A stretch of DNA of 64,000 bases from an uncultured Lachnospiraceae bacterium (GTDB taxonomy: Bacteria > Bacillota > Clostridia > Lachnospirales > Lachnospiraceae), in assembly GCA_947165025.1 (NCBI GenBank), contig CAMUYQ010000001.1, positions 434,001-498,000 on the forward strand. The letters run 5' to 3'. Below the pieces are notes generated by a model, which was given only the letters and a program-made list of their open reading frames with translations, was not told where the DNA came from and did no database searches. The position numbers and the translations under genes were made by a program. Within the stretch, counting starts at the first letter, position 1. Every line of letters starts with the position of its first letter. Positions 29,570 to 42,478 of this stretch are shown here, in pieces.

Positions 29570-30811
29570 TTATTTCTTCCTCTCCTCAACGGTACCAAAC
29601 AGGTCTCTGTACCATGAAAGTGCCTCTATGTATGCGTCATATACAGGACTCTCATTGATGTTATATAGTATCATCTGTCTTGACAGTTCGGACCACGATG
29701 CGATCTCATAGCACTGTATGAATCCGAGTACCTTTGCCATATCACCTTTTCCTTCAACAAGGGCTTCCGTTATCTCCTTGGATACGTTGACCATTGCGAG
29801 CGCCTCTTTCATCGGCTTGTCAAGGATGATATCCAGAACAGAGAACAGCCCCATCAGGAACAGTTCGGAGGACAGAGCCGCCATCTCAAACGTAGGCGCG
29901 AGATTCTCGGCAAACTTTGCACGAAGAAGTGAAAGTCTCGTGATCTCGTTCGGCTTATCCGCACACAGTTCCTTGGATACGACTGCGTTGATCCATTTTT
30001 TAAGTTCCTTCTGGCCGAGCATGGCAGCTGCGTGTCTGATCGAAGTGATCTCGGAATTGACTGCCATATGGTTGACCATACGAAGAAGTTCGATAACAAG
30101 TGCCGTATCTCTTCCGATGATATCGGCAGCCTTTGTAAGCTCGAAGTCCGGATTGTTGACGATCTTGAGAAGTTCGATATAGTTGACCTTCAGCGGTGCA
30201 ACCTTTGTCGTTCCCTTTGTGACCGGAAGTCTGTAGAAATCCCCTTCATAAAGCGAATACGCTCCGCCCTTTGCAAGCTCTTCGTAATCCTCGAGAGAAT
30301 CAACGTTTACAGCGATCATTTTGATATTGGGATAAACCTTGGTAAAGAAGTTCCTGGCTGCCACCATGTTGAGCTTCTTATAGTCAAGCATTATATAGTC
30401 AAGAAGCTTGAGCACCGGTGCATATTCCTCAAACTGCTCTATCGCAAGGTTCCTTATAGCAAGCTTGTAGTTCATGAACTTAAGCTGCTGGAGTCTCTTA
30501 ATATACATTGTCTCCGCCGGGATCGTATGATCGAACAGAAGAACAACCTTTTCATGCGGCATGGAACAGTTTTCCTCGATAGGTGAGAACATCGAGATAT
30601 TGGAAAGTTCAACGAAAACCTCCTGGTTATCCGAGAGTGTTCCCACTCCAAGGCTCTCTACAACCTCAAGTCCGAGTATCGAGCCGGCACCGTCGAGCGC
30701 GCCCGTTCCCAGCATGCTCGGATTACGCAGGTAATTCTGCTTCTGCGCAAATACCGAATACGCCGAAACCGCCGTTTTTTCATCAAATAAAGGAATTAAT
30801 GTCGCAAGCAT
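29570..30811 (-). CDS. EAL-HDOD (YuxH-type) signalling protein
   Basis: The 413-residue protein has a degenerate N-terminal EAL fold (about 1-205): the opening is YSVFAQKQNYLR and no EAL triplet, DDFG or catalytic Glu is visible. The C-terminal HDOD domain (about 205-400) contains IGRDTALVIELLRMVN, IRHAAAMLGQKELKKWI and SSELFLMGLFSVLD. YuxH-type proteins act in c-di-GMP or stress signalling without enzymatic activity, probably by binding nucleotides or partners. It follows two membrane EAL genes on the same strand. Confidence 0.87.
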   Translation of the reverse strand: MLATLIPLFDEKTAVSAYSVFAQKQNYLRNPSMLGTGALDGAGSILGLEVVESLGVGTLSDNQEVFVELSNISMFSPIEENCSMPHEKVVLLFDHTIPAETMYIKRLQQLKFMNYKLAIRNLAIEQFEEYAPVLKLLDYIMLDYKKLNMVAARNFFTKVYPNIKMIAVNVDSLEDYEELAKGGAYSLYEGDFYRLPVTKGTTKVAPLKVNYIELLKIVNNPDFELTKAADIIGRDTALVIELLRMVNHMAVNSEITSIRHAAAMLGQKELKKWINAVVSKELCADKPNEITRLSLLRAKFAENLAPTFEMAALSSELFLMGLFSVLDIILDKPMKEALAMVNVSKEITEALVEGKGDMAKVLGFIQCYEIASWSELSRQMILYNINESPVYDAYIEALSWYRDLFGTVEERKK

Positions 30812-30878: not shown

Positions 30879-32813
30879 TCAGGATGCTGACTTCTCTTTC
30901 AGAAATCTGATATAAGCCTGTTTAGTAAGAGGCCGTGAGAAATAGAATCCCTGGATCTCATCGACTCCCATCTCCGTGAACGAGTCAAGCATTTCCTTTG
31001 ACTCGATACCTTCGACCACAACTTTCATCTTCATGTTCTTGAGCATCTCAATAAGATTCCTGATGATGACATGATGTCCTCCGCTCTCTTCCATCAGGAC
31101 GAATGCACGGTCAAGCTTTACTATGTTGAGCGGAAGTGATGCGATACGCATCAGATTGCTGTATCCTGTTCCGAAATCATCAAGCGAGAACGTGAACCCG
31201 TGATTTGAAAGTGTTTGGATATTTCCGTACAGCCTCGACTGTGAATAGGCACTTGCCGTCTCGGTTATCTCCAGATTGATCTTTGAAGGATCAACTTCGT
31301 ATTTGTTGCACAGGCTGATGATCTCCTCGGCAAGATCGCCACGAAGACACTGCATCGCCGACAGGTTCACCTCAACATAATCAACATTCAGCTGCGCAAA
31401 ATCAGGAGATGCGATAAACTTTACAACCTCCTCGAGAACAAAACTTCCGATCGAATGGATCGCACCGTTCTTCTCGGCGATCGGGATGAACAGATCCGGA
31501 GAAATGTACCCGTATTTCGGATCACGCAGGCGAAGAAGCGCTTCAGCGGATGCAAATCTTCCGGTGGACGTATCGTATATCGGCTGGTAGAACACAGAGA
31601 AATAATGATTCGTAAGGGCTCTTTCTATGATCGCCGACATTTCCTTTTTTAGTTTAAAGTCGCTCGTTGCGGTTATCTTCGAAGCCGAAACGACCTTTCC
31701 GTCAGCCTCCGCTTTGTCAAGATCCGAGATCAGCATGAACAGCGAATTGATATCGGAAACATCATCCGGGCATAACACGAGGCATGTGTTGATCATAAGT
31801 TCAAAATCGGATATCTCCATTCTGATGTTCTGTCTAAGCGTCCTGCCTATCTCATCCGCTATCTCGTTTGCGAACGGGAAATGTTTTTTGGACAGTTCTA
31901 TGGCAAACTTTCCGTCCCCGTTGTAATAGCACAGAAACTGTGCGTGATACTTCTTCATTATCCTGAGGATCTCAGCCGATACGGGCGCCATCATCTTGAG
32001 CATCGCATCATATCCGACCATCCTCATGGCATATTCGAAATTGACTATGTTAAGAAGGATTATCTCCATCTGTTTGCCTGTCATGAAGTTTGTGTTCATG
32101 TCCTCGGCAAACACTTTGTACGTGTGCATTCCCGTTGCAGAGTCAACGGAGTCCTCAACACGCTTGTTTATAAGAACAAGCATCAGTATACATATCGTTA
32201 TTACAAAGCAGACGATGTGATGTCTCGGAATGATCCAGGATATTATCATTCCCGACGAAACGATTACTATCGGTGCAGTCAGGACATAGAACCTTTTTCT
32301 GTCGATCGGTCTGACGTTTTTCTTAATGAACAGATATGCAATGAGCATATACAGTATGAACACGGCATGACCGAGATAATAACCCCAGTGATAAATAAGA
32401 GCTTTCCCTTCAGAAACCTCAATCGCCACAGGATAGAAATAATTGACTATAAGTATCGGGATATAGATGATTATCGGAAGCGCGCAGGCAACAACCTTTA
32501 TCCATATCCTGGTGAGCTTGTGCCACATATCCGTCGTTGCAAGAACATACAGAAGGAACAGCGGCGGTATGAACGACAGTATCATGATGTAAGCAGTGTT
32601 CATGTTCAGAAATCTGAATGTACTGACCCCGTCAAGCGCGGCAAATCTTACCCTTGTTGCGTCACATACAGCCGCACAGAGCGTACAGATGATTATGAGC
32701 GCCATGAACAGTGCCCTGTGTGTACCGCGTACTCTCGTACGGTAGTAATCCACGGCTATGACAACAAGCAATATGAATGCACAGTAATCATATACGGCGA
32801 TATCTGTTCCCAT
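30879..32813 (-). CDS. Membrane c-di-GMP phosphodiesterase (7TM-like sensor, degenerate GGDEF, intact EAL)
   Basis: The 644-residue protein has about seven membrane helices in residues 1-225. A GGDEF-like domain follows in which the signature is CYYNGDGKF, so cyclase activity is unlikely. The EAL domain keeps the catalytic set: FYQPI, AEALLR, VEVNLSAMQC, LEITETA, SLDDFGTGYSN, VKLDR and VVEGIES. It should hydrolyse c-di-GMP to pGpG in response to a membrane or periplasmic signal. A GGAAG box lies 4 bases before the ATG, and it follows a sister gene after 8 bases. Confidence 0.92.
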   Translation of the reverse strand: MGTDIAVYDYCAFILLVVIAVDYYRTRVRGTHRALFMALIIICTLCAAVCDATRVRFAALDGVSTFRFLNMNTAYIMILSFIPPLFLLYVLATTDMWHKLTRIWIKVVACALPIIIYIPILIVNYFYPVAIEVSEGKALIYHWGYYLGHAVFILYMLIAYLFIKKNVRPIDRKRFYVLTAPIVIVSSGMIISWIIPRHHIVCFVITICILMLVLINKRVEDSVDSATGMHTYKVFAEDMNTNFMTGKQMEIILLNIVNFEYAMRMVGYDAMLKMMAPVSAEILRIMKKYHAQFLCYYNGDGKFAIELSKKHFPFANEIADEIGRTLRQNIRMEISDFELMINTCLVLCPDDVSDINSLFMLISDLDKAEADGKVVSASKITATSDFKLKKEMSAIIERALTNHYFSVFYQPIYDTSTGRFASAEALLRLRDPKYGYISPDLFIPIAEKNGAIHSIGSFVLEEVVKFIASPDFAQLNVDYVEVNLSAMQCLRGDLAEEIISLCNKYEVDPSKINLEITETASAYSQSRLYGNIQTLSNHGFTFSLDDFGTGYSNLMRIASLPLNIVKLDRAFVLMEESGGHHVIIRNLIEMLKNMKMKVVVEGIESKEMLDSFTEMGVDEIQGFYFSRPLTKQAYIRFLKEKSAS

Positions 32814-32821
32814 CTTACTTC

Positions 32822-34747
32822 CTATCCCATAAGAATAAATCTTATCAGTTCTTTTTTCTCAAGCGGTTTGCAGAAATGATAACCCTGCAGGTAATTACAA
32901 CCGAGTTCCTTAAGCCTGTTGCATATCTCCTCATTCTCAACCCCGACGGCAACCGGATCGATCTCAAGATCAGAGATCATGCGAAGGCTTCCCTCAAATA
33001 TGTCAATGTTGTCAGGCTTGAGTCCTTCCCTGACAAACGATCTGTCAAGTTTAATACCCGAAAGCGGCATCTGCGCAATACGCTCTACCTCAAAAATACC
33101 CGCTCCGAAATCATCCATGAATATCGTAAAGCCGACCTGTGAAAGAGCATCTATATTGTCCCGCATCATTTCAAACATCTCTTTCCCGTCAACGTCGGTA
33201 ATGTTAAAGCATATGTTCTTCGGCTGGACATTGTACTCTTTCATCGTAGACAAAAGCACGGACAGAAGATCACTCCACATGCACTGCACAGGCGACAGAT
33301 TTATCTCCACACAGTCAAACCCCAGAAGGAGAAAATCAGGCATTGAGACAAACCTGCAGACCTCGTCGATGACGTAAGTCGTGATTGCGTGGATCGAGTT
33401 GAGTCTTTCGGCCTCCCCGATAAGGATGTCCGGTCTGATATATCCGAAATCGGGATCGTTCAGCCTGAGGAATGCCTCTGCTCTGACATACCTTTTGTCA
33501 CTGACCGAATAAACCGGCTGGAATTCAAGATGAAACAGGTTTTCGGAAAATGCCCTTTCTATGACCTTTGCTATGTCATTACGAAGTTCAAAACGTTTCT
33601 TGTCAAAAAGTCTCTCTGCATAGCGGAGTTCTCCGGTAAATGCTTCCATCTCAAGCCTGTTGTCAAACGACATGAGGAATTTCGGATCGTCGATGTCATC
33701 GGGACACGCTATGAAGCACACATTGTTCATGACTTTGATCGACATCTCCCTGACTTCGACTTCACGCGTCATCAGCGCATTTATCTCCTGTGATATGCGG
33801 ATCATATCCTCTTTAAATCTTTCATCTGTGATCGCAGCAAACCTTCCGCCGCCCAGATAGTAAAGATCTATGTCGGTATTTGACTGTACGGCCCATTCCT
33901 CGAGACGCGTTGCCAGAATACCTATTATGTCCTGGACGGTGAAATACCCGAGCATTTCTATGAGCGATGTGTAGTTTGTCATGACAGACAGCGTAACGCC
34001 TATCGGAGCATTCAGTTCTTTGTATTTGGCCAGATCCGTGATATAACCATTCATCGAAAACAGGCCGGTTGAACCGTGCATTCTCTCTTCCGGTGACTGT
34101 ATCCCGAAAAGTACGATCAGAAATGCCACGGCCGCAAAGAACATCTGAATATTATGCTGGGGATTAAACGCCTGGAAGATACTCGATCCGACCATGACGA
34201 TGAAGACCATGAAAACACTGAAGAGTTTACTCTTTGAAAACAGTCTGCGGTATCTGATCAGTTCGGCATATCCTATGATCATATACAGATATGAGAATGC
34301 ATAAAGCGAATAAAACAGCGGCCCTCTGGCATAGATACCGTCTTCACCGATCCTGTAGATGATCTTTGTGAACGGATTGACAACAAAGATCAGCACAGTG
34401 ATTATGATGACCGTTCCGAAGTAGATAAATGAAAGTGTTTTTCTCTCGCGAAGCCTGTGCCAGATACCGATCATCACGAAAAGGAAACCGCAGAAGATCA
34501 CGCTTGTCAGGCATGTGCCCCACAGCGTGAATCCGTTTGCGATGTATTTTGCTGCAGTATACCCCGATCCGAAGCCCTCGAGCACAAGCCCCACAGCATC
34601 TGCGGCTGTTGCAATGATAATATCCGCCAGAAGAACGAGGGCCCATTTGTTAAGGCGTCCCCTCGTCATTTTGCGAACGATCAGGGATACGATTATGAGT
34701 GCCTCTACAACAATGGCACAATAATCAAAAATGACATAACTGTTCAA
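32822..34747 (-). CDS. Membrane EAL-domain protein with degenerate active site (paralogue of the next gene)
   Basis: The 641 residues have the same plan as the gene at 30879: about seven helices, a degenerate GGDEF (LYYLGGGRFAAI) and an EAL-like domain. Here the catalytic positions are changed: AEAFLR for EAL, FNITDVDG where an ITE Glu is expected, and VGVENEE for EGVE, while MDDFGAGI and IKLDR remain. It probably binds rather than cleaves c-di-GMP (inference). The start codon is TTG at 34747 with GGAAAG 8 bases upstream, which may keep its level low; no ATG is available nearby. Confidence 0.86.
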   Translation of the reverse strand: MNSYVIFDYCAIVVEALIIVSLIVRKMTRGRLNKWALVLLADIIIATAADAVGLVLEGFGSGYTAAKYIANGFTLWGTCLTSVIFCGFLFVMIGIWHRLRERKTLSFIYFGTVIIITVLIFVVNPFTKIIYRIGEDGIYARGPLFYSLYAFSYLYMIIGYAELIRYRRLFSKSKLFSVFMVFIVMVGSSIFQAFNPQHNIQMFFAAVAFLIVLFGIQSPEERMHGSTGLFSMNGYITDLAKYKELNAPIGVTLSVMTNYTSLIEMLGYFTVQDIIGILATRLEEWAVQSNTDIDLYYLGGGRFAAITDERFKEDMIRISQEINALMTREVEVREMSIKVMNNVCFIACPDDIDDPKFLMSFDNRLEMEAFTGELRYAERLFDKKRFELRNDIAKVIERAFSENLFHLEFQPVYSVSDKRYVRAEAFLRLNDPDFGYIRPDILIGEAERLNSIHAITTYVIDEVCRFVSMPDFLLLGFDCVEINLSPVQCMWSDLLSVLLSTMKEYNVQPKNICFNITDVDGKEMFEMMRDNIDALSQVGFTIFMDDFGAGIFEVERIAQMPLSGIKLDRSFVREGLKPDNIDIFEGSLRMISDLEIDPVAVGVENEEICNRLKELGCNYLQGYHFCKPLEKKELIRFILMG

Positions 34748-34748
34748 C

Positions 34749-35897
34749 TTACAGGCTTTCCTTGCTTATCTGAAGTATCTTATCTTTCATTTCCGTCTCA
34801 ATACGTCCGAGCTCAGCTTCGGCAGCCTGTCTCTTGGCCCTTCCGTCAGCCTGGATCTGCATTACCTCATCAAATGTTTCTATGAGCATCTGGTTTGTAG
34901 TGGTCAGTGTCTCGATATCAACGATGCCTCTCTCGCTTTCCTTTGCCGATTCAACGGTTGCGATCTTGAGTGCTTCCGCATTCTTCTTGAGCAGTTCATT
35001 TGTCATATCCGTAACTTCACGCTGTGCTCTTGCGGCATCCTGTGAATGATCGAGTCCGATCGCGATGACCATCTGGCTCTTCCAGAGCGGGATCGTATTG
35101 ACCAGCGTTGACTGGATCTTCTCGGCCATAACCGTATCATTGCTCTGGATCAGGCGTATCTGGGGAGCCATCTGCATCGAGATGTTTCTTGTCAGTTCAA
35201 GATCGTATATCTTCTTCTCGAAACGCTCGATCATGGATGCATAATCCCTTGCCTCCTGAGAGTCCTCCTGAAGTCCCGATTCCTCGGCTTTTTTAAGAAG
35301 TCTCGGAAGTTCCTGAGTCTTGGCCTCATCAAGTTTTTTCTTGCCGGCTATGATGTAAAGGCTCAGCTGCTTGAAATAGTCAAGGTTCTCCTCGTACATC
35401 TTGTCAAGCATTGCAACATCCTTCAGCAGTACCTGCTGGTGTCCTTCCATTGCCTTGCTGATCTTGTTTACATTGACCTCGGCTTTGTCATATTTCGCCT
35501 TGAGCGATGTGATCTGATTCCCGGTCTTTTTGAACAGTCCGAAGAATCCTCCCTTTGAATCATCCTCCGAGAATCCCTTAAGCTCCGTAACGACACCCGT
35601 CAGCATGGATCCTATCTCACCCATGTCTTTCGTCCTGACACTCTTTAAAGCACCTTCCGAAAAATCAGCAACATTCTTCTGTGCAGCAGCGCCGTACTGA
35701 AGAACAAGCTGTGAATCCTTGATATTGATCTGCGACATGAACTTCTCTACCGTAGCCTTATCTTCGGGCGAAAGATCATCCTCGTTTGTCTCAACGATCT
35801 CGGCTCTTTGCGGAGCACTCATAAGATCTGCGAGCGGATCGCTCTTCTTTTCCTCCTCCTGTAAGTCAAATACCTGTGCATCGATCACTTCACTCAT
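34749..35897 (-). CDS. telA: TelA-family toxic anion resistance protein
   Basis: The 382-residue soluble protein is almost wholly helical with long coiled-coil segments. It matches the TelA/YceH family (KVNKISKAMEGHQQVLLKDVAMLDKMYEEN region; IPLWKSQMVIAIGLDHS). The family is linked to tellurite and bacteriocin or cell-wall antibiotic tolerance, with an unknown mechanism. The start overlaps the XpaC stop as ATGA; the pair recurs in Firmicutes. Confidence 0.93.
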   Translation of the reverse strand: MSEVIDAQVFDLQEEEKKSDPLADLMSAPQRAEIVETNEDDLSPEDKATVEKFMSQINIKDSQLVLQYGAAAQKNVADFSEGALKSVRTKDMGEIGSMLTGVVTELKGFSEDDSKGGFFGLFKKTGNQITSLKAKYDKAEVNVNKISKAMEGHQQVLLKDVAMLDKMYEENLDYFKQLSLYIIAGKKKLDEAKTQELPRLLKKAEESGLQEDSQEARDYASMIERFEKKIYDLELTRNISMQMAPQIRLIQSNDTVMAEKIQSTLVNTIPLWKSQMVIAIGLDHSQDAARAQREVTDMTNELLKKNAEALKIATVESAKESERGIVDIETLTTTNQMLIETFDEVMQIQADGRAKRQAAEAELGRIETEMKDKILQISKESL

Positions 35898-37210
35898 TGG
35901 TTATCTCCTTTCATATCCTCAAAACCGTTTGACAGACCCTTCTGGATCAGTACGGTTTTTAATACCTGGGCATCTGTTGTTACGTCAAGGACCGAGTCCT
36001 TGAAAAGCTTATTGAGAAGTTTTCCGAGTGCGGAATTGATCGTATCCATCGTGTTCTCTATATCACGTTTGGCCTCGAGTATCTCCCGTCCCGGTTCACT
36101 TACTCTGTCATATTCCCTGTATGCGTCAACAAGCTTTACGGCTGTCGGCAGATAATAATCCATCAGTTCATGGATCCTTGACATCTGATCCGGATGTTCC
36201 CTGATCCTGTCAAATATCTCTTTCAGAAGTCCTTCCAGACGATCAAGCTTAGCTGAGATCTCAACTCCCGGTATGTCGTTGTTCAGCTGGCGTATCCGCC
36301 TGATCTGATCATTTCCTTCCCTGATCATGCGTGACAGTTCCGCCGATTCTTCGGGAGAAAGCGTCGGAAATTCCTGCTCATCCGATTCTCTTGCAGTCGT
36401 GTCTATAACATTTTGCGCGCCCTTTGTCTCAAGTTCAAGATACCGGTTAAATACCTCATCGGTCAGGATGAATGTCCTGTTATCCCTGTCAAAGTGTCCC
36501 TGCGGGAAATAGCCCTGATCGAGCAGTTTCTTTAGGTCCTTTATAACCCTTTTCTCGGACTTGTTTGCTGCAAGTGCGAGCGTTGCTATATCTATGTACT
36601 GTCTGTTTCCGATAAGCTGGACATACCGGTTGGCAAGGTTTGCCATCTTCCCCTGTCTTAATCCTTTGAACAGAAAGAACGAAAATACTCCGAGAAAAAC
36701 GAACGGGACAACTATACCACCGGTAGAGAAAGCTCCTGCCAGAGCTCCTTTGAGCGTGGTCATCAGGAGTGTTGCGCCCGTTATCCCGACACCTACCCCG
36801 CCGACAACACAGTTAACGGTGGAAAGCGATGATCCGACATCGCTGTAAGGATACGGGAGCTGCCTGTTTGCCGCATTCCTTTTTGCAAGACGTTTAGCTT
36901 CGCGCGCGCTGACACGGGCCTGTCTCTCGGCCTCCATTTTCCGCCTTACCTGTTCGCGTTCCGCCTTAAGCTGTCTCTGGCGCCTGGCCGTCTCCGTCTT
37001 CTGTGAAAAATCCTCTTTTCTTTTTGAAAGCGGTATTGCAGATGAGTTATTGGTACCCATCGCTTCATTCATCTTATCGCCCACACCGTCAAGGAAATTG
37101 TCGACGCTTTTGACTATGATGTCATTTAAGGACGACCAGTCATTGTTCTTCATTCCTTCGGACCAGGCTTTTTCAAATTCTTTTCCGAAACTGTGTTTAT
37201 TGTTTGCCAT
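35894..37210 (-). CDS. xpaC: XpaC-like membrane protein, partner of TelA
   Basis: The 438-residue protein has a basic N-terminal region with a coiled-coil KAEREQVRRKMEAERQARVS stretch. Two membrane helices follow at about 130-160 and 165-190. A soluble domain comes next (ANRYVQLIGNRQYIDIATLA, DLKKLLDQGYFPQGHFD), and then the XpaC-type helical C terminus (AKLDRLEGLLKEIFDRIREHP, YYLPTAVKLVDAYREYD). The name comes from hydrolysis of 5-bromo-4-chloroindolyl phosphate, but the real function is unknown. The family co-occurs with TelA. It overlaps both neighbours. Confidence 0.85.
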   Translation of the reverse strand: MANNKHSFGKEFEKAWSEGMKNNDWSSLNDIIVKSVDNFLDGVGDKMNEAMGTNNSSAIPLSKRKEDFSQKTETARRQRQLKAEREQVRRKMEAERQARVSAREAKRLAKRNAANRQLPYPYSDVGSSLSTVNCVVGGVGVGITGATLLMTTLKGALAGAFSTGGIVVPFVFLGVFSFFLFKGLRQGKMANLANRYVQLIGNRQYIDIATLALAANKSEKRVIKDLKKLLDQGYFPQGHFDRDNRTFILTDEVFNRYLELETKGAQNVIDTTARESDEQEFPTLSPEESAELSRMIREGNDQIRRIRQLNNDIPGVEISAKLDRLEGLLKEIFDRIREHPDQMSRIHELMDYYLPTAVKLVDAYREYDRVSEPGREILEAKRDIENTMDTINSALGKLLNKLFKDSVLDVTTDAQVLKTVLIQKGLSNGFEDMKGDNQ

Positions 37211-38675
37211 CGGTCTGATCTTCCTTCCGGCCGTGTGTCAGTTCAGGCTTTGTGTCGTCGCACTCCGAAGCAGGTATGACTTCACCGCCTTCTTCGAACA
37301 CTTTCCGGATCTTATCCGAAACCGGATCGTACGCGATAGTTTTGCGATACGGCAGTCCCTCATCGCTCACGGTATCTATCGAATAAAACATATCTACTGA
37401 TGAATCCCGCCTGATTATAAATCCTCTGTAAGTTATCTTCCCGGGCGCATAACCGTTATCCTTTTCCCATAGTCCGACAATACGCTCAAGTATCTGTGCT
37501 TCTGTCATTCCCGAAGCGGACAGTGCATCGTTTTTATCCATTATCCTGCTTTTCGAAAAACTGTAATTATAGCAGAAAACATCGGGATCCCGCGAACTGT
37601 CGGGGCAAACAGCTACAGATGTTGCAACCTGTACATAATCTGCGCTCGTAACGGGATAGGATCTGATATCAAACCATTGATCATCCGTAAGCTCGCTGTT
37701 TGTGACCGAAAGGATCTCTCCCCTTATCTTTTCATTAAACTCTTCCATCCCCGGAACGTGTTCCTGGAACGAGTTGAGCATCATAACTTCCTCTACTTCG
37801 TTGTGCTTCGGATCATCCGCAGGATATGAATCATACCCGTACACCTGTAAGACCGGAACAAGGAACGGCATGCCGTTCATCTTATCCGATGTGAGCTTGT
37901 CACCGCTTCTGGAACCCGTGATCTCGTATTCGAAGACCGCCGATGTCGTCGTGTTCCTCGTATTGGCACGCATAGAATAAATGAAGTCAACAACCTCCTC
38001 CGACGTTTCCATGCTGACGAGTGCAACTTCCATCTCAAGGGATCCGTCCGAATACTGAGTGACCCTTCTGACCTCGGGAGCCGAGTCTCCGCGGTCTCCG
38101 AGCGAAAACCTGTATTGAAGTCCGGTACTGATGGACATATGAGCCACCCCGTCTTCCACCGCGGTGGCTGAATCAGGGATCGGCGGGATATCGCGCAGTT
38201 TCCCGAACATTGCCAAGATGACGTCACTTATGATCTGCGGATCTGCTTCGACATATTCCGAAACACGTGTAAACTTCATTTTCTTGTCACTGCACGATGT
38301 GACATACATATGCACACAGCGCCATACAAGCTCAGCGTCTGACTGATTGTACGCCTTCTGATTCTCGACACATGCCATGTTTATGGCATCACATACGCCG
38401 ACCATTCTCGCTATGCCTTCGGGAAGATCGTCAACATCAAGGCTCTTGGATGTTTTGATGGTACTGTCGGTTGTGAGCTTTTCCGAGATCTCAGTCTCTT
38501 CCGCAGTTTCAGAAGACGATGATCGTTTTGTATTGTCAGACAGAAATGCCCCGTCCTGCATTGCATCAACTTCTCCGAACCTGCTCTTTTTTTCAGGTTC
38601 TTCGTTACATCCGCAAAGACAGGCTGACAATAATGCGATGATGATGATTTTTGAACTGAACAAACACTTACGCAT
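37197..38675 (-). CDS. Lipoprotein of unknown function
   Basis: The 492-residue protein has a lipoprotein signal ending in lipobox LCGC (Cys23) and an acidic, Ser-rich spacer to about residue 80. I do not recognise a family. The mature part is acidic with alternating strands and helices and a C-terminal stretch ITYRGFIIRRDSSVDMFYSI. It is extracellular and membrane-anchored. It lies 6 bases after the Fe-S/EAL gene and overlaps xpaC by 14 bases, so it may be the external part of the same signalling or stress complex. Confidence 0.8.
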   Translation of the reverse strand: MRKCLFSSKIIIIALLSACLCGCNEEPEKKSRFGEVDAMQDGAFLSDNTKRSSSSETAEETEISEKLTTDSTIKTSKSLDVDDLPEGIARMVGVCDAINMACVENQKAYNQSDAELVWRCVHMYVTSCSDKKMKFTRVSEYVEADPQIISDVILAMFGKLRDIPPIPDSATAVEDGVAHMSISTGLQYRFSLGDRGDSAPEVRRVTQYSDGSLEMEVALVSMETSEEVVDFIYSMRANTRNTTTSAVFEYEITGSRSGDKLTSDKMNGMPFLVPVLQVYGYDSYPADDPKHNEVEEVMMLNSFQEHVPGMEEFNEKIRGEILSVTNSELTDDQWFDIRSYPVTSADYVQVATSVAVCPDSSRDPDVFCYNYSFSKSRIMDKNDALSASGMTEAQILERIVGLWEKDNGYAPGKITYRGFIIRRDSSVDMFYSIDTVSDEGLPYRKTIAYDPVSDKIRKVFEEGGEVIPASECDDTKPELTHGRKEDQTDGKQ

Positions 38676-38681
38676 ACTGGT

Positions 38682-41255
38682 CTACTCTATCATAAGTTTA
38701 ACGAAGTCATCCTGCGGCATTGGCTTTGCATAATAAAAGCCCTGGATGACACTGCATCCCATACCGCTGAGAAGATCGGCCTGTTCCTTCGTCTCGACAC
38801 CTTCGGCGACCATTTCAAATCCGAGCTTTCTCGTCATATCAACGACCGCTGAGATGATCACGTTCCCCCTGTCCATATTTTCATTTCCCCTGAGGAATCC
38901 CATGTCGAGCTTGACTATATCTATCGGAGCATCCTTCAGAAGATTGAGCGACGAATATCCGCTTCCGAAATCGTCCATGTTTACCTTGAATCCCATGTCC
39001 CTTATCTGCTGGACACGGGAGAATATCTCACTTACATTGTCCGAGTATGCGCTCTCGGTTATCTCGAACTGGATGTATCCGGCAGCCTCCGGATACTTAT
39101 CCTTAAGCTCCCCTATGACCGTCAGTATCGAATCATCCACAAGGCTGATCCTTGATATGTTGACCGAGATCGGAACTGCAGTATGACCGTCATTGAGCCA
39201 CTTTGATACCATTTCAAAAGAGCTTCTCCACACGAACCTGTCGAGCTGGGTAATGTATCCGTTCTTCTCAAATACCGGAACGAACAGTCCCGGGCTGACT
39301 ATGCTGCCGTCCGGTTTGATCCATCTGGAGAGAACTTCGGCACCGACCATTTTGCCGGATGCGTGATCATACTTGGGCTGAAGATAAAGAGCAAACTCAC
39401 CTGCGGCCATCGCACTTTTCATCTTCTGCGTGACCTCAGCCTCTTCCGACATCTTCTTTGTCATCTTCTCGGTATAGAAAGTATACGTGTTAACACTTCT
39501 GTCCCTTGAAGTTCTGAAAGCATATGTGGCATATAGAGCCGCACGTCCGATCGCTACAGACGTATTGTCCATCTCATATATACCGCACTTGAGCGTGAGC
39601 GGATATTCTATCCCGAGATGTGAGACGGACAGCTGCGTATCGACCTTAAACCTTTCTATGTTTTCCCTTGTATTCTCGAATATGCAGCCGAACGTGCCTG
39701 CGCCCATCCTTCCGCATACTCCTCTTTTGTCCGAAAACTCCTCTATTACCTTTGCGACGTAGCAGATGACCATATCGCCGCCGGTATTCGAATACAGGTC
39801 ATTGATACCTCCAAGTCCGTTGATATCGGCAACAACAAGAACGAATTTTTTGTCGGGTTCCCTCGCAACAAGCCTTGTCGCACGTCTGAAGAAACCGCGC
39901 TGGTTGTAAAGGCCCGTAAGGGAATCGATCGCCATCTGGTTCTTCATCTCGTCGTTAAGATAATGGACACAGTCCTCTATCCTCGAATAGCCGTTGGCAA
40001 CCGCACAGACCATCTCATAACAGCTTCTGTATCCGCACGCCTGGCAGTCAAGTTCCTTTTTGACCTGCGTCGTCTTGTGCATTGACGTGAATATCTCTTC
40101 AACAACGCTTTCGGGCACCGAACATTTCTGATGATAATCCTCTTCGCCTTCCCACTCGAAATCGCGCGTGTTCAGATCCTTGAACTTTTCAAGAAGACGT
40201 CTGTAACGCTCGTTAGGAGATATGCTTCCGTCATCTTCTTTATCCATGCAGCGATAGTATTCTTTTGTATAGAGCGGAACGCTCTTTTTCATATCTACGG
40301 CGTTACGGTCTATCGCGGGTCCGTCAATACAGCCCGTCCTGCAAAGATCGATAGTTACGAGCGTCGGATGATTGTCAAGAAACTCCTGACTGTTTGAATT
40401 GAGAAGTTTTTCAAGCTTACGGTCTATTCCGACACGTGATTTGAACAGGTATTTCGGTGAAAAATACCTCGAAACGATAAACGCAAAAGCATCGTTTTCA
40501 CAGATCGATTTTCCGATCCCGTCGTTGTCTATGTCAAATCCCGAATCAAACTGCGAGATGTCTATATCTCCGATACGTTTTATTAGACTTGAAAATCCTA
40601 TGAGATAGTTTATGTTCCTCCCGGTATTGTATGAACTGAACTCATCATAAATTGCAGTACAGGGTGACAGGAGCGCGAATCTGTCCTTGATCTCTTTGTA
40701 CTTGCGGTAATAGATCGCAGCGCAGACACTCGGCAGCTGGACAGGTATGAACTTGTTAAGAGCATCCGGCGCATATCTCGACACATAGTTTGAAAATCCC
40801 GGGCATGTATGCGCATAGAACTTGTCGCACTTTCCGTTTTCGTCAAGATTGTCGTGAAGATATTTCGTATGGCAGAACATACTGATATCACCGCCAATCG
40901 ATGCGTCATATATGTTCCTGATACCGATGGACTTCAGATATCCGAAAATGTGCCTTGCATACTCCATCCCGTACGCAACAACAAACACCGGATCGACTAT
41001 GACCGAAACCTGTGCTTTTCTTGAAAGATCAAGAAACAGTTCATCAAGGCTGTCATTGTATTCTCTGGCGCCGTGAATGCATTCTCTTACGCATGCTCCG
41101 CAGTGGATGCAGTTCTGGTCGGATACATCCACACTTATCCTGTGCTCGTCATTTGCCGAAACATTTGCGCCGACAGCGGGGCAGACATGCACACAATGGT
41201 TACACGCCACACATTTGTCATTTGTAACGATCATTCCGTCGTTGTATCTTCTCAT
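38682..41255 (-). CDS. Ferredoxin / [FeFe]-hydrogenase-like / Fe-S / GGDEF / EAL fusion protein
   Basis: The 857-residue soluble protein starts at ATG 41255 (MRRYNDGMIVT; GGGAAG box upstream). Two 4Fe-4S ferredoxin motifs use Cys15/18/21/25 and 49/52/55/59. Next is an H-cluster-like domain whose ligand cysteines are all kept: Cys151 in HTCPGF, Cys199 in LSPCTA, and Cys305 and Cys309 in LCRTGCIDGP. The proton-relay Cys of catalytic enzymes is Thr150. A further 4Fe-4S site follows at Cys404/407/412/429. A GGDEF domain (about 440-600) is degenerate (GRMGAGTF). The EAL domain (about 612-855) keeps GAEVLSR, VNISR, FEITESA, NMDDFGSGYS, VKLD and AEGVET, so it should cleave c-di-GMP. This suggests redox- or H2-controlled phosphodiesterase activity (inference). 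It follows the FIST gene by 13 bases. Confidence 0.9.
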   Translation of the reverse strand: MRRYNDGMIVTNDKCVACNHCVHVCPAVGANVSANDEHRISVDVSDQNCIHCGACVRECIHGAREYNDSLDELFLDLSRKAQVSVIVDPVFVVAYGMEYARHIFGYLKSIGIRNIYDASIGGDISMFCHTKYLHDNLDENGKCDKFYAHTCPGFSNYVSRYAPDALNKFIPVQLPSVCAAIYYRKYKEIKDRFALLSPCTAIYDEFSSYNTGRNINYLIGFSSLIKRIGDIDISQFDSGFDIDNDGIGKSICENDAFAFIVSRYFSPKYLFKSRVGIDRKLEKLLNSNSQEFLDNHPTLVTIDLCRTGCIDGPAIDRNAVDMKKSVPLYTKEYYRCMDKEDDGSISPNERYRRLLEKFKDLNTRDFEWEGEEDYHQKCSVPESVVEEIFTSMHKTTQVKKELDCQACGYRSCYEMVCAVANGYSRIEDCVHYLNDEMKNQMAIDSLTGLYNQRGFFRRATRLVAREPDKKFVLVVADINGLGGINDLYSNTGGDMVICYVAKVIEEFSDKRGVCGRMGAGTFGCIFENTRENIERFKVDTQLSVSHLGIEYPLTLKCGIYEMDNTSVAIGRAALYATYAFRTSRDRSVNTYTFYTEKMTKKMSEEAEVTQKMKSAMAAGEFALYLQPKYDHASGKMVGAEVLSRWIKPDGSIVSPGLFVPVFEKNGYITQLDRFVWRSSFEMVSKWLNDGHTAVPISVNISRISLVDDSILTVIGELKDKYPEAAGYIQFEITESAYSDNVSEIFSRVQQIRDMGFKVNMDDFGSGYSSLNLLKDAPIDIVKLDMGFLRGNENMDRGNVIISAVVDMTRKLGFEMVAEGVETKEQADLLSGMGCSVIQGFYYAKPMPQDDFVKLMIE

Positions 41256-41268
41256 AACTCTTCCCGCC

Positions 41269-42393
41269 TTACTCAAACACAAGTATCAGCATAGTCTGGT
41301 TCAGATGTCTGTATGCGAACTGCTCTCCGTGTCCTGACACTCCTATATATTTACCGAACTCAGATGTGAGAAAATCATTGTATTCGGCAAGTTTTCCCGT
41401 TTCGGTAAAGTAACGGGCTCTCGAAAAACAGTTGATGACAAATGAAAACGAAGGCGCCTCGATAAGCTCGTGTACCCTCTTTGAAGTATCGGCCCACACA
41501 TCTTCCACAGGGTCTATCGGATCAAGGAGAACAACTCTGGTCTGATTGTATATCCTTGAGAAAAAGCTCATGCTGCCGTCAGGAAATAGCTCACGTACGG
41601 CGATAATGTTCAGATCGTCATTCTCCAGCCTTCCGACGGGATGGAAGAATGAATTGGCGCCAAGTTCGTCTTCGGGTATCTGCATTGCCGACGCAACAAC
41701 ACCGGTTGCACTCTTGTGGTCGAACTCATAAACCTTTCTCGCATCACAGTCAACATCGGTTGCCGTAAAGAAATGCTTTGTGGGTCTGAACATGTTTTCC
41801 TTAACTATCGCAACCCTGCCGTTTTCGTTATGGACAAATGCGAACACGCACGCATCCATGTACAGTATGCCGTTAAGCGATACAGCCGAGGGCTTGTCGG
41901 GATTGACAGCCGTTGCCGCAGTACAGCCGCAAAGCTCAATATCCGTATTCTTCATGACTTCGTGGAATGTGTCCATGACAAGTTCTTCGCAGTTTCCGAC
42001 GGACGCGTTGAACTCAAGACAGACAGTGTTTTCCTTTTCTGTCTTTTCAAGTGCCGTTTCTATCGCATCGCGTGATCGCCTGGGATATCTGGAAACTTCA
42101 AAAAGAACGCCCGATGAGACAGTAATGCCCTCAGTAATGGCCATTACCGAAAGACCGTTCCTTCCGATACCTTTTGTCGATATGAACACGTCGGAAGTAG
42201 ATCCGATGACGGTCGCATCAGGGAATGAATTGGAAAGCATACGGGAATACCATCCGAAATTTGCATTGTCGGATGTGAATATCACCAGAACCGGTGAGAT
42301 AAGTTCCCCGTTCTCTTTAAGCTGCTCAAGTATCTGCGGATAAGCATTGGTCCCGATCTTATCCTCGGCCTGGGCAACATAGCATCTTTGCAT
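41269..42393 (-). CDS. FIST-domain sensory protein
   Basis: The start at 42393 (MQRCYVAQAED) has GGGAGGG 4 bases upstream and leaves 374 residues. The N-terminal FIST domain shows VLVIFTSDNANFGW, VIGSTSDV and ELCGCTAA. The FIST_C domain ends with VSGHGEQFAYRHLNQTMLIL, close to the usual GE-x-HNQT ending. FIST proteins are thought to bind small ligands such as amino acids and feed signals to kinases, phosphatases or c-di-GMP enzymes. Here the partner is the Fe-S/EAL fusion directly downstream. A TG-T-TAAAAT extended -10 box at 42427-42432 is a weak promoter candidate for the whole run. Confidence 0.9.
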   Translation of the reverse strand: MQRCYVAQAEDKIGTNAYPQILEQLKENGELISPVLVIFTSDNANFGWYSRMLSNSFPDATVIGSTSDVFISTKGIGRNGLSVMAITEGITVSSGVLFEVSRYPRRSRDAIETALEKTEKENTVCLEFNASVGNCEELVMDTFHEVMKNTDIELCGCTAATAVNPDKPSAVSLNGILYMDACVFAFVHNENGRVAIVKENMFRPTKHFFTATDVDCDARKVYEFDHKSATGVVASAMQIPEDELGANSFFHPVGRLENDDLNIIAVRELFPDGSMSFFSRIYNQTRVVLLDPIDPVEDVWADTSKRVHELIEAPSFSFVINCFSRARYFTETGKLAEYNDFLTSEFGKYIGVSGHGEQFAYRHLNQTMLILVFE

Positions 42394-42478
42394 AGACCCT
42401 CCCATGAAGATAAACCTTAACAACTTATTTTAACACATCCGCGAAAAAAAATGTATGAAAAAAGCAAAAAACACGGGG

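Follow-up and report, generated by a model that had tools for sequence, protein, structure and literature searches.

A candidate FIST-coupled iron-sulfur switch, derived from a sensory [FeFe]-hydrogenase head, on a c-di-GMP phosphodiesterase of an uncultured Lachnospiraceae bacterium

Hydrogenase-type sensors joined to signalling outputs have been described in several groups, and Table 1 of the HydDB paper links [FeFe] group C to kinase, chemotaxis and phosphatase functions and [NiFe] group 2c to cyclase (PMC5037454). According to the TmHydS paper, sensory hydrogenases change C299, M353 and M497 yet retain the residues that stabilize the [2Fe] unit (PMC10055695). In the published hydrogenase-like protein Nar1, which has no [2Fe]H, the clusters react with O2 (PMC12621388). 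The stretch of 64,000 nucleotides analysed here (the window; positions 434,001 to 498,000 of contig CAMUYQ010000001.1, assembly GCA_947165025.1, from an uncultured Lachnospiraceae bacterium) encodes an 857-amino-acid protein in which a head of this type is joined to an EAL domain for the breakdown of cyclic diguanylate (c-di-GMP). We propose, with a probability of roughly 0.47, that this protein is a FIST-coupled iron-sulfur (Fe-S) switch, derived from a sensory [FeFe]-hydrogenase head without the carbon monoxide- and cyanide-carrying (CO/CN) [2Fe] subcluster, and that it sets c-di-GMP breakdown. The sensor probably detects redox state or an oxidant, with a partner protein, and not hydrogen itself.

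The gene was read as a single open reading frame (ORF) on the minus strand, with an ATG at 41255 and a stop at 38682-38684, and the aligned start codon was ATG in 10 of 11 same-genus orthologs and GTG in the remaining one (L042). The Pfam scores of the protein were 202 bits for EAL, 52.9 for GGDEF, 52.4 for Fe_hyd_lg_C, 32.8 for Fer4_10 and 27.0 for FeS (PF04060), all five above their curated cut-offs (Table 1), which bore out the domain order that an earlier, sequence-only reading had placed in one protein. The cysteines of the ferredoxin region were found at residues 15, 18, 21, 25, 49, 52, 55 and 59, the H-type ligands at C151, C199, C305 and C309, and the cysteines of the Cx2Cx4Cx16C site at 404, 407, 412 and 429; motif check and alignment to CpI showed that the same reading had all of these positions right. 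All 16 cluster cysteines were invariant across the 12 aligned heads (identity to the window head 63-71%, one 33%), compared to just one of the remaining seven head cysteines among the 11 same-genus rows, and their retention is therefore beyond chance. Instead of the GG[DE]EF active-site motif of diguanylate cyclases the GGDEF domain carried GAGTF, and the motif was degenerate in 11/11 orthologs. The EAL domain held, by motif check, the residues that we take to be the catalytic set (E640, N699, E731, D761, D762, K782, E818 and Q838), and its motifs were intact in 11/11 orthologs, so that the dead GGDEF and catalytically equipped EAL domains read earlier were both confirmed.

A sequence profile of the head aligned to solved CpI chains with an E value of 4.9e-21 or weaker, and C151, C199, C305 and C309 fell on the four CpI H-cluster ligands, both by this alignment and by the motifs of the genome's own hydrogenase. 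These four cysteines were kept in 11/11 same-genus orthologs. The residues around them were compared in an alignment of trimmed heads, 11 from the window clade and 76 others, using CpI residue numbers that we take to be correct; the counts that follow come from related sequences and are not independent events. The position of Ala230 was occupied by Asp in 11/11 heads of the window clade (D88 in the window protein, invariant in 12/12 aligned heads) compared to Ala in 72/76 other heads. At the position of Lys358, Ile was found in nine and Met in two of the 11 (I202 in the window protein), compared to Lys in 72/76. The position of Cys299 held Thr in nine and Asn in two (T150 in the window protein), against Pro in 71/76, and that of M497 held D in seven, E in three and A in one (D303 in the window protein), against L in 71/76. 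Both A230 and K358 also deviated in four of the 76 other heads (D/R in L145, S/R in L078, P/H in L084 and S/Q in L086, respectively). A search of the class added L177, an MCP (methyl-accepting chemotaxis protein)-output protein with D and R, whose upstream side is cut off, and L180 with G at A230.

The changes known from sensory hydrogenases at C299, M353 and M497 were therefore found in the window protein as T150, S197 and D303, and the loss of the proton-relay Cys, noted earlier as a likeness to the sensory enzymes (HydS), was confirmed by Thr150 at CpI Cys299. The residues that hold the [2Fe] cofactor are reported to be conserved in HydS (PMC10055695). A230 and K358, which we take to touch the [2Fe] part and to be among these residues, were changed to D and to I or M, respectively, in 11/11 heads. 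Because these two positions are altered on top of C299, M353 and M497, the window clade is, as judged from the alignment, one step beyond known HydS in pocket change. The role of K358 is said to have been described by Knoerzer et al. in 2012; neither our literature search nor a term search within the accessible text of related papers returned a role for it at the H-cluster. The TamHydS paper reports for group A that most changes to conserved residues around the site lose function, often the H-cluster itself, and that pockets differ between hydrogenase groups (PMC10407848).

The second feature that sets this clade apart is its neighbour. A gene for a protein with FIST_N and FIST_C domains (72.3 and 31.8 bits in Pfam) lay directly upstream of the EAL gene, its stop codon separated from the ATG by 13 bases. 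It was found upstream and on the same strand in 11/11 orthologs and also in L145, a distant relative that shares the D at A230; as a caution, the EAL domain of L145 is without its catalytic residues. No FIST gene was found beside any of 99 other head ORFs with a narrow or a broad profile, 12 of which had less than 700 bases upstream and could not be judged. These 99 ORFs lie outside the FIST clade and include one repeat of the MCP head of the window genome and two part ORFs; since the narrow, window-clade profile misses distant FISTs, the search was repeated with a profile built from 25 FISTs and by comparison to Pfam places by eye. Against the NCBIfam NosP equivalog the FIST protein scored 83.4 bits, below the cut-off of 450. 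FIST (PF08495) was present in 29/37 genomes of the genus. Among 13 other FIST places four were fused to kinases, four had a kinase gene as neighbour, two lay next to an MCP-like gene, one was fused to EAL (L186:958-3543), one to GGDEF (L187:1172-2923), and one was without such neighbours. FIST thus does feed c-di-GMP outputs in this genus, given these last two fusions. The window genome also encodes a FIST_C domain fused to a kinase (L185:379-2940), with FIST_N just below the cut-off. NosP-type FIST proteins have been linked to nitric oxide (NO) and c-di-GMP in other bacteria, and NosP and CdpA to c-di-GMP control (PMC8846402, PMC8738867). This linkage is a new element that the sequence-only reading did not contain.

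The cofactor state, signal, direction of control and contact with FIST that we infer from these observations are as follows. The H-type site would most likely hold an ordinary [4Fe-4S] cluster or else some other simple Fe-S cofactor, seated beside the conserved Asp88 in the remodelled cavity. The two ferredoxin clusters would wire this site to the Cx2Cx4Cx16C cluster just ahead of the output, a redox change of the clusters, or oxidant damage by O2 or NO, would be the input, and the signal would pass via the dead GGDEF domain and switch the EAL phosphodiesterase. As a dedicated partner, the FIST protein encoded upstream would supply a second input or dock on the head. By analogy, Nar1 shows that an H-type site can occur without [2Fe]H. 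A more specific form, in which the diiron CO/CN unit is gone, an Asp lies in the cavity and the H-site, re-purposed as a new Fe-S or iron site, controls c-di-GMP hydrolysis together with a FIST gas sensor, we hold to be somewhat doubtful. If true, this would give Nar1 a counterpart in bacteria, one that evolved from an H2 sensor into a dedicated pair of proteins switching c-di-GMP in response to an oxidant or redox state. More generally, the Fe-S clusters of the proposed switch would couple an anaerobe's redox state to c-di-GMP. The earlier statement that H2 or redox state sets c-di-GMP breakdown is retained here, conditionally, in its redox part; H2 was judged less likely than a redox or oxidant signal.

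The maturases HydE, HydF and HydG bear on the cofactor. None was found above cut-off in the window genome (99.17% complete, 20 contigs), and given this and the altered A230 and K358 in 11/11 heads, the H-cluster is not supported in the form claimed from the sequence. Among the 37 genomes of the genus HydG, HydE and HydF were counted above cut-off in 21, 20 and 19, respectively, and 16 genomes had none of them at that level; weaker HydF matches, mostly to the GTPase part, occurred in all 61 genomes searched. HydG was found in 4 of the 11 ortholog genomes, and the other seven, the window genome included, had no HydE, HydF or HydG above cut-off. Since the pocket changes are fixed also in the four genomes with HydG, they are not mere decay after loss of the maturases. 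All 16 maturase-free genomes, of which three are about 99% complete, kept a hydrogenase-type protein with H-cluster motifs (L001/L103 in the window genome), as found in a check of 41 of the 44 places above 170 bits (G030:C138, G022:C64 and G036:C373 were left out). That 16/37 genomes combine [FeFe]-hydrogenase-type proteins bearing H-cluster motifs with no HydEFG above cut-off is puzzling in itself. Missing HydEFG was consequently rejected as proof of a missing H-cluster, because intact hydrogenase pockets occur in HydEFG-free genomes; the absence is a hint and a weak argument, with a lost replicon or an assembly gap as possible causes.

Several observations weigh against the proposed switch. 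Intact pockets in HydEFG-free genomes of the genus suggest that an H-cluster may be obtainable there. The head L084 (P and H at the two positions) has HydE, HydF and HydG within about 5 kb on its contig, and an altered pocket therefore need not mean that the H-cluster is gone. The D and R pocket of L177 sits on an MCP protein (upstream side cut off), the four ligand cysteines would suit a full H-cluster just as well, and the placement of D88 and I202 rests on the alignment, as the full-length AlphaFold2 model made from five sequences (mean predicted local distance difference test score 46.6, and 22-47 in most blocks of the head, residues 1-430) was too low in confidence for use of the fold.

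One alternative is a true H2 sensor, as the sequence-only reading had it, in which a full H-cluster, its redox state changed by H2 or CO, switches EAL activity. The ligand cysteines, the Cx2Cx4Cx16C site and the loss of C299 are as in HydS, HydS-type heads carry MCP, kinase and EAL outputs in the same genus, HydG occurs in 4/11 ortholog genomes, L084 is near HydEFG, and for Ruminococcus albus, a rumen bacterium, H2 sensing by a group C enzyme has been proposed (PMC6776011). We nevertheless consider it unlikely in view of the change of A230 to D and K358 to I or M in 11/11 at positions kept in 72/76 relatives, the reported retention of the [2Fe]-holding residues in sensory hydrogenases (PMC10055695) and the lack of the three maturases above cut-off in 7/11 ortholog genomes, that of the window included. 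A slightly less probable explanation is that FIST is the sole real sensor, of a gas such as NO and perhaps via heme, and that the head is a redox-inert docking platform with structural clusters, the two forming a NosP-like pair. Here the retention of all 16 cluster cysteines, those of the wiring clusters too, seems to exceed what a platform would require, and the 450-bit NosP cut-off was not reached, with heme binding putative; the linkage in 11/11 plus L145, the 83-bit match to the NosP model, the FIST fusions to EAL and GGDEF, and the published tie of NosP and CdpA to c-di-GMP control (PMC8846402, PMC8738867) would all be accounted for.

It is improbable that the protein is a decaying relic that has lost sensing and acts as a constitutive phosphodiesterase. 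The altered pocket, the dead GGDEF motif and the degenerate EAL domain of the distant L145 would fit decay, but the ligands are invariant and the FIST neighbour is present in 11/11 orthologs at 63-71% identity, and D88 is invariant in 12/12 heads. The FIST-coupled Fe-S switch is the reading that we favour.

The search for the same domain order in other Lachnospiraceae, suggested with the original prediction, found the build in 11 of the 37 genomes of the genus (heads 63-71% identical), among the 61 genomes searched; weak matches were incompletely listed in that search and a 354-residue partial head (G025:C3) was left out. A contig scan found four relatives, by title all Lachnospiraceae metagenome-assembled genomes and one of them from water buffalo rumen. 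The best match beyond the genus, in 246 genomes of the order, was the L145 protein at 34% identity, and no further close member was found among the best four candidates per genome in 391 genomes of the class; the order search scored the best seven first-look candidates per genome, and members may have been missed in both. L145 itself (L145:2936-6394, genome G270) is a FIST-linked protein of 1153 amino acids with a degenerate EAL domain and a C-terminal PAS domain.

The 87 heads collected, including that of the window, were assigned by comparison to five labelled references to MCP (33), kinase plus receiver (26), EAL (25), GGDEF alone (1) or no output (2), and 19 of the 25 EAL-output heads scored for GGDEF as well. 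Pfam scans of 18 other heads matched these labels and added GGDEF to L077 and L145, which belong to the six with an EAL-only label. The head is therefore a common module, and its fusion to EAL is one among several outputs. The window genome encodes one more head of the same type, with an MCP output (L002/L102), and L084 (L084:3954-6320, genome G040) carries, in another family, the same head type on a GGDEF-only output (136 bits). On the tree, EAL outputs fell into two places. One is the window clade joined by L145 (support 98, starred); the other is a separate group of 13 proteins, spread over 11 genus genomes, and of these genomes G023 carries the window clade too. There was no support for the EAL fusion having arisen once, as the two EAL clades stand apart on the tree, where deep placing is unsure because long branches meet there. 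The second group kept A230, K358 and the EAL motifs in 13/13, and five of its members (L059, L061, L067, L081 and L095) had a GGDEF motif of active form. Because its pocket is intact, the second group is, on sequence grounds, the better candidate for H2-controlled c-di-GMP. One genus thus offers a natural series, from an intact-pocket head on MCP, kinase and EAL outputs to an altered pocket with FIST on EAL, and which residues decide between sensing of H2 and of other signals is therefore testable.

Downstream of the EAL gene the window encodes further proteins with EAL domains (Table 1), and one of the two with a membrane-like N-terminus (30879-34747) shows motif changes that look inactivating by eye. 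The window genome has 34 matches to the GGDEF domain, 33 of them above cut-off, and 11 EAL matches, three of which lie within 30879-41255. Promoter and terminator scans at the locus gave results at about chance level.

Table 1. Features of the locus in window coordinates, and members of the second EAL group
Feature	Position	Strand	Evidence
Two-[4Fe-4S] ferredoxin, H-type, FeS, degenerate GGDEF and EAL protein, 857 amino acids	38682..41255	-	ORF, Pfam, motif check
N-terminal two-[4Fe-4S] ferredoxin region, residues 8-63, eight Cys	41067..41234	-	Fer4_10; 8/8 Cys invariant in 12/12 heads
H-type (Fe_hyd_lg_C) domain, residues 83-313	40317..41009	-	Pfam; profile alignment to CpI chains; pocket table
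PF04060 FeS site Cx2Cx4Cx16C, residues 402-430	39966..40052	-	Pfam; 4/4 Cys kept in 11/11 orthologs and 76/76 other heads
GGDEF domain, residues 442-563, motif GAGTF (degenerate)	39567..39932	-	Pfam; motif degenerate in 11/11 orthologs
EAL domain, residues 612-845, catalytic residues intact	38721..39422	-	Pfam; motifs intact in 11/11 orthologs
FIST_N and FIST_C protein, directly upstream of EAL gene	41269..42423	-	ORF, Pfam, NCBIfam; same neighbour in 11/11 orthologs and L145
Putative lipoprotein, next downstream; 7/11 loci	37197..38675	-	Lipobox-like start by eye; no Pfam match
Halogen_Hydrol (PF10112) protein, downstream; 10/11 loci	35894..37210	-	Pfam
TelA family protein, downstream; 10/11 loci	34749..35897	-	Pfam
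EAL protein with membrane-like N-terminus, downstream	32822-34747	-	
EAL protein with membrane-like N-terminus, downstream	30879-32813	-	
EAL/HDOD-like protein, downstream	29570-30811	-	By eye
Second EAL group: L052, L059, L061, L064, L067, L072, L073, L074, L076, L077, L081, L095, L096			

Among known systems, Nar1/CIAO3 is a eukaryotic Fe-S assembly factor that is not known to carry an EAL output. It resembles the window protein as an H-type homolog that keeps the ligand cysteines and is itself without the [2Fe]H cofactor (PMC12621388). RmcA, CdgF, the hemerythrin HD-GYP protein and PdeC likewise bring a redox or O2 input to c-di-GMP hydrolysis but use flavin, di-iron or disulfides, unlike the window protein (PMC8846402). 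The terms hydrogenase, iron-sulfur, Fe-S and 4Fe-4S had no match in the searched text of that review of c-di-GMP sensors, and searches of open-licence PubMed Central papers, judged by title and start of abstract, gave no report of the present fusion, subscription journals being outside this scope. NosP and CdpA share the link of FIST_N and FIST_C to c-di-GMP enzymes, whereas the FIST protein here is separate, is paired with an Fe-S head and falls below the NosP cut-off. The window protein is like HydDB groups [FeFe] C1, C2 and C3 and [NiFe] 2c in placing a hydrogenase-type sensor on a signalling output, and the paralog L102 in its own genome has the MCP output of group C2; it differs from C1-C3 in having GGDEF-EAL and not a kinase, MCP or phosphatase. 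The likeness to HydS of groups C (M2f) and D (M2e), including TmHydS and TamHydS, extends to the two N-terminal [4Fe-4S] motifs, the four H-cluster cysteines and the Cx2Cx4Cx16C site (PMC8163306), and to the altered C299, M353 and M497 (PMC10055695). In contrast to HydS, the window protein has altered A230 and K358 positions, a GGDEF-EAL output where HydS has PAS, kinase, MCP or phosphatase, and a FIST neighbour in a genome without HydEFG above cut-off.

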